From: Streptomyces tendae
GTDB lineage: Bacteria > Actinomycetota > Actinomycetes > Streptomycetales > Streptomycetaceae
NCBI RefSeq assembly: GCF_014650435.1
Contig: NZ_BMUY01000019.1
Location: 1-64,000 of the forward strand
Reading direction: 5' to 3'
Length of the DNA: 64,000 nt
This document shows, piece after piece, positions 1-6,253 of the stretch. Below the pieces are notes generated by a model. That model searched no databases and was not told where the DNA came from. It worked only from the letters and a program-made list of their open reading frames with translations. Numbering within the stretch: the first letter of the stretch is position 1; each line of letters starts with the position of its first letter. The position numbers were made by a program, and so were the translations under genes.

Positions 1-294
1 GACATGGTCGACCACGTGACCAGCAGGTGGGGCGTCTGGGTGCTCATCTCCCTGCGCCGCAACGACCTCCGGTTCTACGAGCTGCGCGAGAGCATCCAGG
101 GCATCAGCGAGAAGATGCTGGCCCAGACCCTGCGCACGCTGGTCGAGGACGGTCTGGTCTGGCGGAAGGTCGAGCCGACGACGCCGCCGCAGGTCACGTA
201 CGGGCTGACCGAGTTCGGCCGGGACGTCGGCGAGCCGCTGACGGAGCTGTTCGACCGGATCACCCGCCGGCTGTCGGCGCTCGATCCCGCCTGA
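1..294 (+). CDS. HxlR-family winged-helix regulator, 5' end outside window
   Basis: The reading frame is open from base 1, so the start codon lies upstream. The 97 visible residues carry the winged-helix signature of HxlR proteins: a SRWGVWVLISL helix, the RFYELRESIQGISEKMLAQTLRTL helix-turn-helix region, then a wing ending in YGLTEFGRDVGEPL. The missing N-terminus would hold the short segment that often carries the redox-active cysteine of this family, so ligand or redox sensing cannot be judged. It ends 62 bases before htpX and may be unrelated to it. DNA binding is well supported; the target is unknown. Confidence 0.85.
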   Translation, partial: DMVDHVTSRWGVWVLISLRRNDLRFYELRESIQGISEKMLAQTLRTLVEDGLVWRKVEPTTPPQVTYGLTEFGRDVGEPLTELFDRITRRLSALDPA

Positions 295-356
295 CCTTCG
301 GGGCGCCGGGTGCACACTGGACAGCGGGACGAGTGCCCGACTGTGAGGTGGTGGAG

Positions 357-1271
357 ATGCAGAGCCGCTTCCGGAGTGACCGGCGGTTGACCGTGCGCAT
401 GGGGATCACCCTGTTCCTGCTCGGCCTGTTGTACGTGGGGTTCGTCGCCGCGCTGATCGCGCTGCTGAAGTCCTGGGTCCTGGTCGTGGTGATCGTGGCG
501 CTGGTGTTCGGGGCGCAGTACTGGTTCTCCGACCGGATCGCGCTGTTCGCGATGCGCGGCCGGATCGTGGAGCGGGACGAGTATCCGGAGCTGCACGGGG
601 TGGTGGACCGGCTGGCGGCGATGGCCGACATGCCGAAGCCGGTGGTCGCGGTGTCGGAGATGGAGATGCCCAACGCCTTCGCCACCGGCCGCAATCCGGA
701 CAACGCGGTGGTCTGCGTGACCACCGGGCTGTTGCGGCGGCTGGAGCCCGCGGAGCTGGAGGGGGTGCTGGCGCACGAGTTGTCGCACGTCGCGCACAAG
801 GACGTCGCGGTGATCACGGTGGCGTCGTTCCTCGGCGTGATCGCCGGGCTGATCGTGCGGTTCGCCTTCTACTCCCAGCTCTTCGGCGGGCGCCGGGACC
901 AGAACACGATGGCGGTCCTGGCGGTGGTGATGGGCGTCTCGGCGGCCGTGTACGCACTCAGTTTCCTGCTGATCCGGGCCCTGTCCCGGTACCGGGAGCT
1001 GGCGGCCGACCGGGCCGCGGCCCTGCTCACCGGGCGCCCCTCGGCCCTGGCGGCGGCCCTCACCAAGGTCACCGGCGACATCGCCCGCATCCCGACCAAG
1101 GACCTGCGCACCGCCCAGGCGTTCAACGCCTTCTACTTCACCCCGGCCTTCGGCAGCGAGCCCGGCCTCGGCCGGTTCTTCGCCACCCACCCGAGCCTGG
1201 AGCAGCGGCTCGACCAGCTGGGCCGGATCTCCGCCGAGCTGGGTGAGGCGACGGCCCCCGGCCATGCCTGA
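357..1271 (+). CDS. htpX: HtpX-like M48 zinc metalloprotease, membrane-bound
   Basis: Membrane protease that degrades damaged membrane proteins. The 304-aa product has two hydrophobic segments near residues 15-60, then the catalytic helix VLAHELSHVAHKD with the HExxH zinc motif, two more membrane segments, and the downstream RELAADRAAALLTG stretch that supplies the third zinc ligand (E/D region) in M48 enzymes. The ATG at 357 was chosen because the product then starts just before the first membrane helix and a GAGGTGG ribosome site lies six bases upstream; the frame stays open further upstream but with non-coding-like residues. It is followed 45 bases later by pspAB, a pairing known from the actinobacterial phage-shock/envelope-stress system. 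Confidence 0.9.
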   Translation: MQSRFRSDRRLTVRMGITLFLLGLLYVGFVAALIALLKSWVLVVVIVALVFGAQYWFSDRIALFAMRGRIVERDEYPELHGVVDRLAAMADMPKPVVAVSEMEMPNAFATGRNPDNAVVCVTTGLLRRLEPAELEGVLAHELSHVAHKDVAVITVASFLGVIAGLIVRFAFYSQLFGGRRDQNTMAVLAVVMGVSAAVYALSFLLIRALSRYRELAADRAAALLTGRPSALAAALTKVTGDIARIPTKDLRTAQAFNAFYFTPAFGSEPGLGRFFATHPSLEQRLDQLGRISAELGEATAPGHA

Positions 1272-1316
1272 GGCACGGGAAGTCACGGGACGTCGCGGGA
1301 GGACGGGCGCACGGGC

Positions 1317-1895
1317 ATGAGACTGCTGGACATCCTGCTCGGCAGGTCCCGGGCCGTGGGCCCGGATCTCGACCGGCTCTTCGCGCTGCCCTCGGCGGCG
1401 GTGGGCCTGGAGGCCGCGGCCGGGTTCCGGCCGACCGGGCAGGGGGCGGTGTGCTTCGCCACGGTCGAGGGGGCCGCCTTCGAGCGCACGCACCGCGAGA
1501 TCCGCGCCCTGCTGGACGCGGACGCGGGGCGCACCCCGGTGGAGCTGACCCACGACTCCTACGGCTACTCCTGGCTAGTCTCGCACCGCTCCCCGGAGGA
1601 GCTGCCGGTCCTGGTGAACGACCTGCACGCGGTGAACAGCACCCTGGAGGCGGCCGGCTTCGGGCCGCGGCTGCTGTGCTCGCTGGCCGGTTTCGCGGCC
1701 GAGGACGGGCGGCGGCTCGCCCTCGTCTACCTCTACAAGCGCGGCACGTTCTACCCCTTCGCGCCCCTGCCCGGCGGGCGGCAGCAGCGGGACAACGCGC
1801 TGGAGCTGCGGATACGGGCGGCGCTCGCCGACGAGCTGCCGGTGGAGGACGACCTGGGCCGCTGGTTCCCGGTGTGGGGTGCGCCCGGACTCTGA
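1317..1895 (+). CDS. pspAB: PspA-associated protein PspAB
   Basis: 192-aa cytoplasmic protein without signal or membrane segments. The opening MRLLDILLGRSRAVGPDLDRLFALPSA, the central VNDLHAVNSTLEAAGFGPRLLCSL and the terminal DLGRWFPVWGAPGL are the conserved blocks I recognise from PspAB, a partner protein found beside PspA or HtpX in actinobacteria. It follows htpX by 45 bases on the same strand, so the two probably form one operon for envelope stress. No pspA gene lies in the window. Biochemical activity is unknown; the name describes genomic association only. Confidence 0.8.
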   Translation: MRLLDILLGRSRAVGPDLDRLFALPSAAVGLEAAAGFRPTGQGAVCFATVEGAAFERTHREIRALLDADAGRTPVELTHDSYGYSWLVSHRSPEELPVLVNDLHAVNSTLEAAGFGPRLLCSLAGFAAEDGRRLALVYLYKRGTFYPFAPLPGGRQQRDNALELRIRAALADELPVEDDLGRWFPVWGAPGL

Positions 1896-1935
1896 GCGCC
1901 GGGTGCCGTGCAGGACACGGCACCCGGCGCCGACG

Positions 1936-2256
1936 TCACCGCGAGTACCGCATCAACGCCCGCACCATGTGGCAGGTCGTGTCCGACGGCGGATGAACGC
2001 CGATGGTCAGGGCGGCGCTCCGTATCCTCTCGTTGCGCGCCTGGTTGGGCAGGTAGACGCCGGAGTCGAGCAGGGCGATGGCGAGGCGCATCGCCTTGAG
2101 CCGGCGGTTGTGCGTCACGTACCACTCGCGCGGGCGGCCCGCCGGCAGCGGACGCTTCTCCACGGGTTCGTACGGCAGGTCGAGCAGGACGGGCCGCTTG
2201 GCGGTGGACTGGGTGGGCAACGGCTTCGGCTTCAGTGCGGCAGCGGGCACGGGCAT
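1936..2256 (-). CDS. Conserved small protein, probably DNA-damage-inducible
   Basis: I do not recognise a named family. The roughly 106-aa product starts with a Pro/Lys-rich stretch (MPVPAAALKPKPLPTQS), then a basic helical core with REWYVTHNRRLKAMRLAIALLDSGVYLP, and ends MVRALMRYSR. It has no signal, membrane segment or cysteine pair (a single Cys near the C-terminus). The start is ambiguous: AGGAGG abuts the ATG at 2256 directly but lies six bases before a GTG at 2250, so the GTG is probably the real start (104 aa). A near-perfect RecA-independent damage promoter lies about 60 bases upstream, which suggests a role in the DNA-damage response. The basic composition would suit nucleic-acid contact, but that is inference. 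Confidence 0.75.
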   Translation of the reverse strand: MPVPAAALKPKPLPTQSTAKRPVLLDLPYEPVEKRPLPAGRPREWYVTHNRRLKAMRLAIALLDSGVYLPNQARNERIRSAALTIGVHPPSDTTCHMVRALMRYSR

Positions 2257-2317
2257 CCTCCTGTCGCGGTCAGGGCGCCGTCCGGACCTCCCGGCGACAC
2301 CCTCGAACACTGCTTCT

Positions 2318-2340
2318 ATTTTACTGCCCACCACTGACAA
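2318..2340 (-). promoter_or_regulatory. RecA-NDp/PafBC-type DNA-damage promoter
   Basis: Read on the minus strand this is TTGTCAGTG, eight bases, then TAAAAT. It matches fully the tTGTCRGtg-N8-TAnnnT motif described for LexA/RecA-independent DNA-damage promoters of mycobacteria and Streptomyces. Transcription would start near 2311, giving a leader of about 55-60 bases before the small conserved gene. The A/T-rich -10 stands out sharply from the surrounding GC-rich DNA. Confidence 0.75.
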
Positions 2341-2424
2341 AAGCCCCTGCCCACAAGGCATTTCGGGGCCGCTGGGACCCACGTGGTGAACGAGTTCCGC
2401 CGCCCTCCGGCTACCGTGTGCGGC

Positions 2425-2784
2425 ATGGAGATCTGGATCAATCCGGCCTGCTCGAAGTGCCGCAGCGCGATCAGCCTGCTCGACGCGGAAGGGGCCGACT
2501 ACACCGTCCGCCGCTACCTGGAGGACGCGCCGAGCGCGGACGAGATCCGCGAGGTGCTCACCCGGCTGGAACTCGAACCGTGGGACATCACCCGTACCCA
2601 GGAGGCGGCCGCCAAGGAACTGGGCCTGAAGGACTGGCCCCGTGACGAGGCGTCCCGCGACCGCTGGGTCACCGCGCTCGCCGAACACCCCAAGCTGATC
2701 CAGCGCCCGATCATCACGGCGGACGACGGGACGGCCGTGGTGGGCCGCACCGACGAGGCGGTCCGGGACGCCCTGTCCCGGTAG
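2425..2784 (+). CDS. ArsC/Spx-family thioredoxin-fold protein (arsenate reductase-like)
   Basis: 119-aa protein of the ArsC/Spx fold. The N-terminal INPACSKCRSAISLLD carries a CxxC pair on the first helix, and IQRPIITADDGTAVVGRT near the C-terminus is the conserved RPI block of the family. This resembles the glutaredoxin-coupled arsenate reductase/YfgD type; with a second cysteine in CxxC it could equally be a general thiol oxidoreductase. No arsenic-resistance genes lie nearby, so the substrate is unproven. The ATG at 2425 is chosen over the upstream in-frame ATG because family homology starts at MEIWINPAC. A TACCGT element ends eight bases before it, so the transcript may be leaderless. Confidence 0.8.
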   Translation: MEIWINPACSKCRSAISLLDAEGADYTVRRYLEDAPSADEIREVLTRLELEPWDITRTQEAAAKELGLKDWPRDEASRDRWVTALAEHPKLIQRPIITADDGTAVVGRTDEAVRDALSR

Positions 2785-2901
2785 GCCGCCCTGCGGAATG
2801 TGACGCAGGTTACGGGCGCGCGTCGACGCGACCGGTGAGTAACTCCGTTCGGTATCTCGTACATAGCGGCGTACGCTCCCCTACCTCTTCAGGAGGCGCG
2901 G

Positions 2902-3585
2902 ATGTCGCGCAGGAGAACTCTCGGTACGAAGAAGAAGATCGCGCTACTGGTCGGCGCCGCCACGGTGGCCGGTGGCGGCGCCTTCGTCATGGCGAACGCC
3001 TCGAACGCCGCGCAGACCACGCAGGACGCGCGGACGAAGGCGGCCCAGGACTCGGGTGTCTGCCAGGGTCTGGCCACCGCGCTCGGCAACAACCAGCGGT
3101 TCATCGAGGGCCAGCGGGCCAATCCCGACGCGCAGTCGCAGGCGCGGATCGAGAACCGCGAGGCCGTCGTCGCGGAGATCGAGCGCAAGCAGGCCGCCTC
3201 GGGGTGCGCGGTCGGGGAGTCGGCTCAGGACTCCCAGACCCCGCAGCCGCCGCAGGCCGGACAGGAGGCGGGCCAGGACACCGGGGACCGGACCGGCGAC
3301 CAGGCGGGCGACCAGGCAGGGGGCGCCGGGCAGGCCGGCGAGCAGGTCTGCGCCGGCTCCACGGTCACCCTCTCCGGCGAGGGCGGTGCGCCCGCCGCCT
3401 CCAGCAACCAGTTCCCGGTGGGCACCAAGCTCAGGGTGACCAACCTCGACAACGACAAGTCCACGACCGTGGAGGTGAACTCGGTCTCGGGAAGCTGTGC
3501 GCTGCTCAACAACGCGGCGTTCGAGCAGGTCCGTGAGGAGGGCAAGTTCCTGATCCGGCGGGCGCTGATCGAGAAGGTCGGCTGA
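2902..3585 (+). CDS. Secreted protein: helical N-domain, Gln/Gly/Asp linker, RlpA-like C-domain
   Basis: 227 aa. The N-terminus (RRRTLGTKKKIALLVGAATVA then small residues) is a signal peptide with an AxA-like site near residues 33-36. A charged helical segment follows, flanked by cysteines (GVCQ, ASGC), then a low-complexity linker rich in Gln, Gly, Asp and Thr (about residues 108-148). The C-terminal 75 residues (CAGSTVTL, GTKLRVTNLDNDKSTTVEV, FEQVREEGKFLIRRALIEKV) look like a double-psi-beta-barrel/RlpA-like domain found in cell-wall proteins. AGGAGG sits five bases before the ATG. Likely exported and wall-associated; enzymatic activity unproven. The same architecture with another C-domain recurs at 11419. 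Confidence 0.7.
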   Translation: MSRRRTLGTKKKIALLVGAATVAGGGAFVMANASNAAQTTQDARTKAAQDSGVCQGLATALGNNQRFIEGQRANPDAQSQARIENREAVVAEIERKQAASGCAVGESAQDSQTPQPPQAGQEAGQDTGDRTGDQAGDQAGGAGQAGEQVCAGSTVTLSGEGGAPAASSNQFPVGTKLRVTNLDNDKSTTVEVNSVSGSCALLNNAAFEQVREEGKFLIRRALIEKVG

Positions 3586-3588
3586 GGC

Positions 3589-4470
3589 TCACTCGCCCGG
3601 CACGCCCGGTGCGGCCAGGAAGTCGCCGAGGCGGCGGCCGAGACCGGGCGGCGCGGACTGCGGCAGCGCGTGGTGGGACACGTCCGGCAGGACCGCGGTC
3701 TCCACGTGCGGCAGCAGGGTCCGCGCCCGGGCCGCCACCTCGGCGGGGTCGTGCGTCCTGCTGTTCCCGGCCAGGAGCAGCAGGACCGGCACGTCCAGGG
3801 CGCGCAGCGCCTCGGGGGCCGGGCGCGGTCCGGTGACCGGCCTGCGCTCCGGGAAGCCGACGGCGGCCTCCTGGAGGGCGAGCCAGTCGGCGTCGAGCGG
3901 TGTCGCCCCGGTCTCCCAGTCCAGGAAGGCGCGGACCCGGCGGGGCGTGGGCCGCAGCAGCATCGGCAGCGCGCGCAGCAGGTAGGCCGCTTTGAACCCG
4001 GCGAAGCACTGGGTCGGGTCCAGGAGGAACAGGCGGCGTACCCGCTCGGGCGCGTGCAGGGTGTGGTGCAGGGCGATCCAGGCGCCGTAGGAGTGCCCGC
4101 CGAGGTCGGTCTCCGCGATGCCGAGGCCGTCGAGGAGCGCGTCCAGCCAGCCGGCCAGGTCGGCGACCGTACGGGGGTGGCGGTCGCCGGCCGGTGTGCT
4201 GCGGCCGGGGGCGCCGATCAGGTCGACGGCGTGCACGCGGTGGGTACGGGACAGCTCGGCGGCCTGGGCGTACCAGGACGCGGAGGTCGCCGCTCCGCCG
4301 CCCGGCAGCAGGACGAGGGGACGGCCGCCGGCCGGGCCGGTCACGTTGACGTGCGTCTCACCGAAGGGCGTGGGCACGGTCACCGCCTCGGTGCCCGCGG
4401 GCCACTTGGCCAGCACCTTGTCGTAGGCGTCCCGGAAACGGCCGGCGTCGTACGGACCGCGAGCGCTCAT
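3589..4470 (-). CDS. Alpha/beta-hydrolase
   Basis: 293-aa alpha/beta-hydrolase. Visible landmarks are the oxyanion strand PLVLLPGGGAATSASW, the nucleophile elbow GGHSYGAW (Ser within GHSYG), and the C-terminal VSHHALPQSAP where the catalytic histidine falls; an acid lies in the LLAGNSRTHDPAEV region. It resembles carboxylesterase/epoxide-hydrolase-like members, but the substrate cannot be read. It is divergent from the MarR gene, and a perfect 19-bp palindrome sits between them, so it is probably the MarR target, as is common for MarR-controlled detoxification enzymes. Its 3' end nearly abuts the secreted protein gene on the other strand. Confidence 0.85.
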   Translation of the reverse strand: MSARGPYDAGRFRDAYDKVLAKWPAGTEAVTVPTPFGETHVNVTGPAGGRPLVLLPGGGAATSASWYAQAAELSRTHRVHAVDLIGAPGRSTPAGDRHPRTVADLAGWLDALLDGLGIAETDLGGHSYGAWIALHHTLHAPERVRRLFLLDPTQCFAGFKAAYLLRALPMLLRPTPRRVRAFLDWETGATPLDADWLALQEAAVGFPERRPVTGPRPAPEALRALDVPVLLLLAGNSRTHDPAEVAARARTLLPHVETAVLPDVSHHALPQSAPPGLGRRLGDFLAAPGVPGE

Positions 4471-4521
4471 GAGCGGTACCCCCTGTTTCGTTCACTCCCC
4501 TGATGCCTGCTTCCCCGGTAT

Positions 4522-4540
4522 TATCTCGCCCAACGAGATA
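4522..4540. promoter_or_regulatory. MarR-type operator palindrome
   Basis: Perfect inverted repeat: TATCTCG (4522-4528), spacer CCCAA, CGAGATA (4534-4540). It lies 51 bases upstream of the divergent hydrolase start and 68 bases before the MarR start. Length and symmetry are those of a MarR dimer site. It probably controls both genes. Confidence 0.7.
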
Positions 4541-4608
4541 CTTGTCGAGCGAGGCGATCGCGGGACACGAGCGGGACGATCGCCGCAGGGACCGAAGGGA
4601 GCGCCCCC

Positions 4609-5085
4609 GTGTCCGACCCGGAACCGGAGATGGAACTCGTCCACCTCCTGCGCGCGGTGGCCGTCGAACTGGGTGCGCACAGCGCCCGGTTCGCCCAGCG
4701 CAACGGCATGCACCCCACCGACGTCCGTGCGCTCATCGCGCTCATGGACGCCGCGCGGGCCGGCGAGGCGATGACCGCCGGGCGCCTGGGCGGCGCGCTC
4801 GGCCTGAACTCCGCGGGCACGACGGCACTGGTCGACCGGCTGGAGCGGGCCGGCCACGTGCGCCGGGTTCGCGACGGACGGGACCGGCGCAGGGTCACCG
4901 TCGAGGTGGACGAACGGGCCGTGACGCTGGGCTGGTCCCACTTCGGACCGCTGATCGGACGGGCGGTGGAGCTGCTGCGCGGATACGACGAGCGGGAACT
5001 GGCGGCGATCCGGGGCTTCCTGACCGGCGTACGGGAGGCCGCCGCGGACGACGGACGTGAACCGCACCACAACGAGCCCGGGTAA
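4609..5085 (+). CDS. MarR-family transcriptional regulator
   Basis: 158-aa winged-helix regulator. The pattern is typical for MarR: an N-terminal dimerisation helix, HPTDVRALIALMDA, the recognition region TAGRLGGALGLNSAGTTALVDRLERAGHV, the wing RRVRDGRDRRRVTVEVDE, and a C-terminal dimerisation helix. The GTG start has a GAAGGGA ribosome site. It is divergent from the alpha/beta-hydrolase gene, with a 19-bp palindrome between them that it very likely binds. Its stop codon overlaps the GlnR box of glnII, so the glnII control region begins inside this gene's last codon. Confidence 0.9.
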   Translation: MSDPEPEMELVHLLRAVAVELGAHSARFAQRNGMHPTDVRALIALMDAARAGEAMTAGRLGGALGLNSAGTTALVDRLERAGHVRRVRDGRDRRRVTVEVDERAVTLGWSHFGPLIGRAVELLRGYDERELAAIRGFLTGVREAAADDGREPHHNEPG

Positions 5086-5119
5086 CACGGGGTTCACATA
5101 CGGGCAACGGTCGGGAAAT
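5082..5119 (+). promoter_or_regulatory. GlnR box of glnII
   Basis: Two tandem GlnR sites: GTAAC-n6-TTCAC (5082-5097) and GCAAC-n6-GAAAT (5104-5119), fitting the gTnAc-n6-GaAAc pattern known for Streptomyces GlnR operators. The first base triplets overlap the MarR stop codon (5083-5085). A TTGACA -35 element follows at 5126-5131; I could not settle the -10 (TAGACG at 5145 is too close for ideal spacing). The arrangement fits nitrogen-dependent activation by GlnR. Confidence 0.8.
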
Positions 5120-5221
5120 CGCCTGTTGACACGCTGCACGGCAGTAGACGCGGTACCCCTGCCGCCCCAGCGCCGCCGCACCCGCACGTGCGCCGAGACC
5201 CACCCCGAAGGATGTGGCCCC

Positions 5222-6253
5222 GTGACCTTCAAGGCTGAGTACATCTGGATCGACGGCACCGAGCCGACGGCCAAGCTCCGTTCCAAGACGAAGATCATCA
5301 CGGCTGCCCCCGCGGGCCTGGACGCCCTGCCGATCTGGGGCTTCGACGGCTCCTCCACCAACCAGGCCGAGGGCAGCTCCTCGGACTGCGTGCTCAGGCC
5401 GGTCTTCTCCTGCCCCGACCCGATCCGCGGCGGCGAGGACATCCTGGTGCTGTGCGAGGTCCTGGACACGGACATGACGCCGCACCCGAGCAACACCCGT
5501 GCCGCGCTGGCCGAGCTGTCCGAGCGCTTCGCCGCGCAGGAGCCGATCTTCGGCATCGAGCAGGAGTACACCTTCTTCAAGGGCGCCCGCCCGCTCGGCT
5601 TCCCCGAGGGCGGCTTCCCGGCCGCGCAGGGCGGCTACTACTGCGGTGTCGGCTCGGACGAGATCTTCGGCCGCGACGTCGTCGAGGCGCACCTGGAGAA
5701 CTGCCTGAAGGCCGGTCTCGGCATCTCCGGCATCAACGCCGAGGTCATGCCCGGTCAGTGGGAGTTCCAGGTCGGCCCGCTGGCCCCGCTGGAGGTCTCC
5801 GACCAGCTGTGGGTCGCGCGCTGGCTGCTCTACCGCACCGCCGAGGACTTCGAGGTCTCCGCCACCCTCGACCCCAAGCCGGTCAAGGGCGACTGGAACG
5901 GCGCGGGCGCGCACACCAACTTCTCCACCAAGGCGATGCGCGAGGGCTACGCCGCGATCATCACCGCCGCCGAGTCCCTCGGTGAGGGCTCCAAGCCGAT
6001 GGACCACGTCAAGAACTACGGCGCCGGCATCGACGACCGCCTCACCGGCCTGCACGAGACCGCCCCGTGGAACGAGTACTCCTACGGCGTGTCCGACCGC
6101 GGCGCCTCGGTGCGCATCCCGTGGCAGGTCGAGAAGGACGGCAAGGGCTACATCGAGGACCGCCGTCCCAACGCCAACGTCGACCCGTACGTCGTGACCC
6201 GCCTGCTCGTCGACACCTGCTGCACGGCGCTGGAGAAGGCCGGCCAGGTCTGA
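5222..6253 (+). CDS. glnII: Glutamine synthetase type II (GSII)
   Basis: Eukaryote-like, heat-labile glutamine synthetase that makes glutamine from glutamate, ammonia and ATP in the cytoplasm. The 343-aa length is standard. Diagnostic stretches are WGFDGSSTNQAEG, FGIEQEYTFF (metal-binding glutamates), NAEVMPGQWEFQVGP and KGDWNGAGAHTNFSTKAMR. GSII is not controlled by adenylylation, unlike GSI. The GTG at 5222 follows a GAAGGA site nine bases away; translation upstream of it does not look coding. A GlnR box and a TTGACA element precede it, so it should be induced under nitrogen limitation. Confidence 0.97.
   Translation: MTFKAEYIWIDGTEPTAKLRSKTKIITAAPAGLDALPIWGFDGSSTNQAEGSSSDCVLRPVFSCPDPIRGGEDILVLCEVLDTDMTPHPSNTRAALAELSERFAAQEPIFGIEQEYTFFKGARPLGFPEGGFPAAQGGYYCGVGSDEIFGRDVVEAHLENCLKAGLGISGINAEVMPGQWEFQVGPLAPLEVSDQLWVARWLLYRTAEDFEVSATLDPKPVKGDWNGAGAHTNFSTKAMREGYAAIITAAESLGEGSKPMDHVKNYGAGIDDRLTGLHETAPWNEYSYGVSDRGASVRIPWQVEKDGKGYIEDRRPNANVDPYVVTRLLVDTCCTALEKAGQV

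Follow-up and report, generated by a model that had tools for sequence, protein, structure and literature searches.

A conserved small-protein gene of Streptomyces behind a PafBC-type promoter overlapped by an SOS-like box

Is a small gene of Streptomyces tendae, preceded by what looks like a PafBC-type promoter, a member of the DNA-damage regulon, and does it escape control by LexA? The question is raised by a 64,000-nt stretch of DNA (the window) from a genome of 8.89 Mb in 139 contigs (G000), for which an original prediction had named a RecA- and LexA-independent damage promoter in front of a conserved basic protein with no assigned role. A literature search found no publication on this gene.

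Promoter, gene and product

The predicted motif is present, as the 23-mer TTGTCAGTGGTGGGCAGTAAAAT is found exactly at 2318-2340 on the minus strand, facing the ORF. It contains an upstream box TTGTCAGTG of PafBC/RecA-NDp type (2332-2340), a spacer of 8 nt (2324-2331) with bases that differ among orthologues, and the -10 box TAAAAT (2318-2323), and both boxes recur in orthologue promoters. The form of RecA-NDp/PafBC promoters, tTGTCRGtg-N8-TAnnnT, is thus found on the correct strand. At zero mismatches, TTGTCRGTG-N8-TAnnnT has this single site in the 64-kb window, and shuffled window sequence gives a mean of 0.03 sites even when up to one mismatch is allowed. From the position of the -10, transcription is predicted to start 6-8 nt after it, at 2310-2312 on the minus strand. 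No Rfam leader was found at the gathering threshold in window bases 1-6000.

The gene's promoter has a conserved signature of its own, a point beyond the original prediction. The candidate element TGRCCAGSGG sits 5-14 nt upstream of TGTCAGTG in the window and in many orthologue promoters, and the window has it as the variant TGGGCAGGGG (2344-2353, minus strand). Strict TGRCCAG is found in 92 of 152 distinct orthologue promoters, with TGGGCAG in its place in the window, and in 10 of the 12 that have no arsC-like neighbour; it precedes 1 of the 50 remaining motif sites of the own genome. The -10 takes the form TARAAT in 73 of 84 orthologue promoters, whereas 1 of 51 own-genome motif sites, that of the window, has it. 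With a -10 that is unique among the own-genome sites, the gene would make a good reporter.

The coding sequence (1936-2250, minus strand, stop codon counted) starts with GTG and encodes 104 aa. An ATG at 2254-2256 would give 106 aa instead, which fits the ORF of about 105 aa originally described, but the Shine-Dalgarno sequence AGGAGG (2257-2262, minus strand) abuts this ATG and sits 6 nt before the GTG at 2250, so the GTG is preferred. The median dN/dS is 0.17 over 59 pairs of orthologous ORFs, drawn from the ORFs with a length of 312 nt (61 of 166) and paired at equal length without alignment, at least one pair (L184, value of 3.3) being misaligned when every fourth value was inspected. This median argues for a real protein-coding gene. 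An orthologue was found in 86 of 91 genomes of the genus (own included), and the window protein has a pI of 10.9 and a net charge of +11, in keeping with the description as conserved and basic. The lack of an assigned role is borne out by Pfam and NCBIfam, which give no match at E up to 1, and by PHROGs, where one family of unknown function appears at E of 0.088. In one genome (G057, L162) the gene is present twice, at a distance of about 4.7 kb, and the second copy lacks the usual N-terminal arm and the KKPLPAG core start.

When the window protein and 38 orthologues were aligned, an invariant core appeared behind a short arm of variable sequence; the core reads P-x-G-x-P-R-x(2)-Y ... R-x-L-K-A-x-R ... 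P-S-x(2)-T-C-x(2)-V-R. All 39 members carry a positive net charge (+5 to +18; pI 9.9-12.0). AlphaFold2 predicts a disordered N-terminal arm and three helices, with pLDDT of 93.4 and pTM of 0.79 for the core modelled alone. No recognised HTH family was assigned to this three-helix core, the window protein having no Pfam match and the fold matches being weak. Among the 39 members, Pfam gives scattered weak matches (MIEAP at E of 7e-4 in two, HTH_IclR at E of 0.1 in two). Fold searches with the whole model and the core gave nothing significant among the matches listed (best Foldseek E 0.89-1.1, best Z 4.9). PADLOC, searched with the window protein and with two distant relatives, yielded no family at E of 1 or below. 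Two further ideas were rejected. Viral relatives were set aside as phages had no match, viral contigs had 17 pattern stretches with none confirmed, and the best BFVD match had E of 0.63. An AT-hook reading of PAGRPR was ruled out, the R of GRP not being conserved.

The gene is found in 280 of 394 Streptomycetaceae genomes (6 of 17 genera), and in a class-level sample in 40 of 394 genomes, two of them outside the family. Distant relatives with about 40% core identity (L235, L236, L237/L261, L238 and L260) lie on linear or circular plasmids or other contigs. One such plasmid, linear and from Streptomyces, has ssb, ParB-like and WhiB genes close to the relative; on another, circular and from Kitasatospora, the surrounding genes are hypothetical.

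That the product binds nucleic acid is our best guess, a tentative one; since no fold match is significant, the idea rests on charge and a common helical arrangement. The protein could more specifically be a DNA-binding regulator or nucleoid protein from a family that also occurs on plasmids, the chromosomal gene perhaps being a domesticated member; this is quite possible, though short of even odds. The plasmid relatives and the high pI of all 39 members are consistent with it, and Fis, Rex and winged-helix entries are among the weak fold matches. However, unrelated folds score equally with these entries, and the plasmid-type relatives lack the damage motif.

The motif in the genome, the genus and beyond

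The motif class is real in the genus Streptomyces. TGTCRGTG-N8-TAnnnT has 51 sites in the own genome versus none for the reversed pattern, and the version with an N9 spacer has none (its reversed control has 1). Strict sites were found in all of the 121 sampled Streptomyces genomes (own included), with 17-85 in each, and the reversed pattern occurs 0-3 times.

For each own-genome site we considered ORFs with GC3 bias that begin 26-400 nt downstream on the same strand as the motif, and took the longest. One site (L257) gave no ORF and the window gene was scanned apart, leaving 49 ORFs for Pfam. By plain count, 17 of these 49 encode repair or replication proteins: RecQ, UvrD, a second UvrD-like helicase, an HhH-GPD glycosylase, DnaX, DnaG, uracil-DNA glycosylase, an Exo_endo_phos nuclease, a PDDEXK nuclease, RuvC, MgsA/RarA, UvrA, UvrB, O6-methylguanine methyltransferase, DnaE, RecA, and a RadA-like protein assigned by reading of its domains. 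WGR, HHH_RecD2 and a DEAD helicase beside the pafBC-like genes are three less certain additions, and the remaining ORFs encode other or unknown proteins. Those without a known repair role (L023, L248, L028, L016, L008, L250, L020, L025, L017, L024 and L244) include two DUF4132 paralogues, a DUF3263 protein of 77 aa, DUF2797, two TerD, SUKH-4 and several Pfam-less products.

Two adjacent WYL genes (C9:167072 and 168065) lie in the Pup-ligase locus of the own genome, where Pup_ligase matches are at C9:156963 and 163511. By position and domain they appear to be pafB- and pafC-like, a place near Pup-ligase-family genes being the known position of pafBC. Two motif sites (L240 and L030, at C9:170869 and 150679 of G000) flank this locus, before the DEAD helicase and PDDEXK nuclease genes.

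The promoter type is not new, because its Streptomyces motif is in print (PMC2375139, PMC5087735). TGTCAGT-type motifs are given for 67 S. coelicolor genes in PMC2375139, where the S. rimosus recA promoter is cited as TTGTCAGTGGCN6TAGggT, and SCO6735 of S. coelicolor is described as having a RecA-NDp promoter and 5-fold induction by UV (PMC5087735; the promoter is repeated in PMC9411070). Regulon and promoter type are already known, and the gene, as a very probable regulon member, is ordinary in kind, with strong evidence for it. PMC9380542 states that in a first search the M. smegmatis PafBC motif seemed not to be conserved in S. venezuelae, and that a RecA/LexA-independent damage response has yet to be demonstrated for Streptomyces. 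Our counts across the genus speak against that motif statement, in a sample of 121 genomes in which S. venezuelae was not searched by name. With strict sites in all 121, the question of such a response becomes directly testable.

At the gene itself, the original prediction would have been undone by a motif that is not conserved upstream of orthologues, but sequence, spacing and strand are kept in 84 of 86 genomes. These are the Streptomyces genomes with the gene (own included), among which 84 have the relaxed form TGTCRGTn-N8-TAnnnT and 74 the full TTGTCRGTG form; of the two misses, L143 has none and L156 has its spacer shortened to 7 nt. A larger set of 166 loci (163 relaxed, 144 full, with misses at L082, L143 and L156) contains duplicate genomes, so the 86-genome count is the one to use. 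None of the 166 loci has the motif on the opposite strand or within a 440-nt window downstream. In column counts, the rows were chosen by the motif pattern, which makes the pattern columns invariant by construction, and only the remaining columns inform: spacer bases are variable, A stands at column 4 of the box in all 38 rows, and the core is preceded by T and followed by G in 37 of 38 each.

Among the 40 genomes of other genera of the family with a match, 25 loci were examined, and 19 have the relaxed motif, 4 near variants and 2 none. TTGTCAGA or TTGTCAGC stands in place of the motif in the near variants (L207, L230, L231 and L233), and the two without motif are L232 and L234, the latter a plasmid-type relative. 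Six loci (L207, L219, L232, L234, L260 and L263) were located by tblastn anchors. Outside the family, the gene is found in two genomes of another family and in a record labelled Nocardia farcinica plasmid 2; all three copies carry the motif with TAGAAT, and two have the leading T. The copy in this 2.66-Mb record (L262, NZ_LN868939.1:1268887-1279123) is unannotated and 72% identical, and has both the motif and an SOS-like box. The motif was not found at the distant plasmid-type relatives (L235, L236, L237, which is the same as L261, L238 and L260) or at a 58% identical plasmid copy (L263). As the motif class is real and the motif is kept at orthologues and at the three outside copies, core membership of the gene in the RecA-NDp/PafBC regulon is very probable.

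An SOS-like box overlapping the -10

The SOS box has the consensus TCGAAC-N4-GTTCGA, also given as TCGAAC-N4-GTTC. The window has a box that agrees with the longer form at 10 of 12 positions, TAGAAGCAGTGTTCGA (2303-2318, minus strand; TCGAACACTGCTTCTA on the plus strand), which begins on the last T of the -10 and spans the predicted start site. Its left half is poor, with TAGAAG where the consensus has TCGAAC, and no exact TCGAAC-N4-GTTCGA exists in the own genome, which has one LexA_DNA_bind gene. When the plus-strand 14-mer TCGAACACTGCTTC is compared with the shorter consensus, it scores 9 of 10, as good as TCGAACATCCATTC, the SOS box of S. venezuelae recA reported as validated in PMC9380542. 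The score of 10 is the best among the 51 own-genome motif sites; a score of 9 is found at two more sites, but at registers other than that of the window box, where the next best site scores 8.

At the fixed register, a score of at least 9 of 12 was found in 25 of 26 genomes with close orthologues (identity of 80% or more) versus 5 of 58 with distant ones. With a half-site spacing of 4, 92 of 97 distinct promoters of the close group score at least 9, as opposed to 9 of 970 shuffled sequences, and with spacings of 0-3 and 5-7, 0-9 of the 97 do so. Nearly all boxes scoring at least 9 (97 of 99) share one register. In the distant group, spacing 2 (as in L173 and L176) occurs in 8 of 58 versus 7 of 58 for spacing 4, with 6 of 580 shuffles each. 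Among other genera of Streptomycetaceae, 1 of 23 loci with a motif-like site (L207) has a box of at least 9 of 12. In the copies outside the family, all three at the register of the window, the scores are 10, 11 and 11 of 12. Against the other spacings and the other 50 own sites, the LexA reading stands for the close clade and the outside copies but not for most distant orthologues.

Per-column conservation in the close group is 98% in the right half-site, about 86% in the next 13 columns and 74% in the next 23. Because the columns after the box are also well conserved, its conservation is partly regional, and in the close clade some of it can be due to shared ancestry or to a leader.

With such a box lying across the -10 and the probable start in the window and nearly all close orthologues, LexA probably also controls the promoter in the window's clade; the poor left half, the lack of the box in most distant orthologues and the common descent of the close clade count against this. 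The original prediction thus stood as to the RecA-NDp/PafBC type of the promoter, on orthologue conservation and a repair-rich motif class, but not as to its independence of RecA and LexA as written; independence of LexA is doubtful with a box of 10 of 12 over the -10 in the window and of at least 9 of 12 in nearly all close orthologues.

Control could nevertheless be by PafBC only, independent of LexA, with the GTTCGA stretch kept as initial transcribed sequence, as leader RNA, or as the operator of another repressor or of the product itself. Such a reading would fit the distant orthologues, which hold the PafBC motif mostly without the box and show spacing 2 as commonly as spacing 4, and it would fit the conservation of the bases after the box. 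We regard it as unlikely, though not strongly so, in view of the close promoters, boxed at spacing 4 and nearly all at one register, and of the outside copies with 10-11 matches at that same register. A bolder version of LexA control, rather improbable in our judgement, would have the PafBC site and a LexA operator fused in one register as a composite promoter that works as an AND gate, driving a checkpoint protein or regulator of a plasmid-shared family.

Small inhibitors such as SulA, SidA and DidA are damage checkpoint proteins, and the product could likewise inhibit division, replication or sporulation. In this case a tight double lock would be needed because the product is toxic, and its small size, a -10 unique among the 51 own sites and the possible double gating fit the logic of an inhibitor. 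We consider this improbable, as the protein is basic and HTH-like and matched no known inhibitor in the libraries searched.

The motif could instead serve the divergent neighbour, an ArsC-family gene (2425-2784, plus strand) whose intergenic region with the small gene is common to many, not all, orthologue loci. An arsC-like gene is adjacent and divergent in 42 of 55 divergent full-length loci and was not found in 13. This reading is rejected as very unlikely because the motif points to the small gene, none of the 166 loci has it on the other strand, and 12 of the 13 loci without the neighbour retain it. On the other side of the gene, window positions 357-1895 hold a gene pair for an M48 peptidase and PspAB (PF22742). 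A chance match of the promoter consensus is excluded for practical purposes by the orthologue conservation, the shuffles, the reversed and N9 controls and the 121-genome counts.

Proposed reading and known systems

Our main reading, to which we give a probability of about 0.6, is that the gene is a DNA-damage-inducible member of the PafBC (RecA-NDp) regulon, probably doubly gated in its clade, with a product that may bind nucleic acid in the damage response. PafBC is the regulator in mycobacteria, where recA, uvrA and uvrC are dual LexA/PafBC genes (PMC8223512), and its activation by single-stranded DNA and sigma adaptation are described in PMC11804915. Upon damage, single-stranded DNA would activate PafBC, and active PafBC would let the housekeeping RNA polymerase use the TTGTCAGTG-N8-TAAAAT promoter. 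Simultaneously, RecA-driven cleavage of LexA would clear the LexA-type operator, which runs from the final T of the -10 across the predicted start site. For this class the -10 comes unusually near to consensus, and such a promoter could leak when unrepressed, which would explain a second lock by LexA. The product, small and basic, with an N-terminal arm predicted to be disordered and an HTH-like core of three helices, would bind nucleic acid and act as a repair accessory, a checkpoint or a regulator. The sequence itself shows the motif and its conservation, the regulon context, the SOS-like box and the coding constraint, while binding by PafBC and LexA, induction, the start site and all function are what we infer from it.

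Because a conserved damage promoter and a likely second damage switch overlap, the gene probably makes an emergency protein for broken DNA. The probable double gating in the window's clade goes beyond the original prediction. If the bolder AND-gate version is true, the protein would be the missing small effector of the streptomycete damage response, and if the SOS-like box works, two damage pathways would be wired compactly into one AND gate. A protein without a family match in Pfam, NCBIfam and PADLOC, and at noise level in PHROGs, is now open to knockout.

How does the locus compare with known systems? The top fold match is the M. smegmatis orthologue of Rv0543c (PDB 3ol3, 3ol4; presumably the family DUF3349), likewise a small actinobacterial protein of unknown function, but the match is not significant (Foldseek E 0.89-1.3, Z 4.5-4.9) and sequence-profile searches did not find it. 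The small damage-induced checkpoint proteins SulA, SidA, DidA and SosA share small size and the damage control predicted here, whereas no similarity to them was found in the libraries searched and the core here is basic and HTH-like. With the RecA-NDp/PafBC class of mycobacteria, S. rimosus recA and SCO6735, the locus shares both boxes, the N8 spacer, the company of repair genes and a pafBC-like locus; it differs in the TARAAT -10, seen at no other of the 51 own sites, and in the overlapping SOS-like box. The mycobacterial genes under LexA and PafBC (recA, uvrA and uvrC; PMC8223512) are alike in having both site types in one promoter region. At the locus described here, the SOS-like box shares its first T with the -10 and keeps one register.
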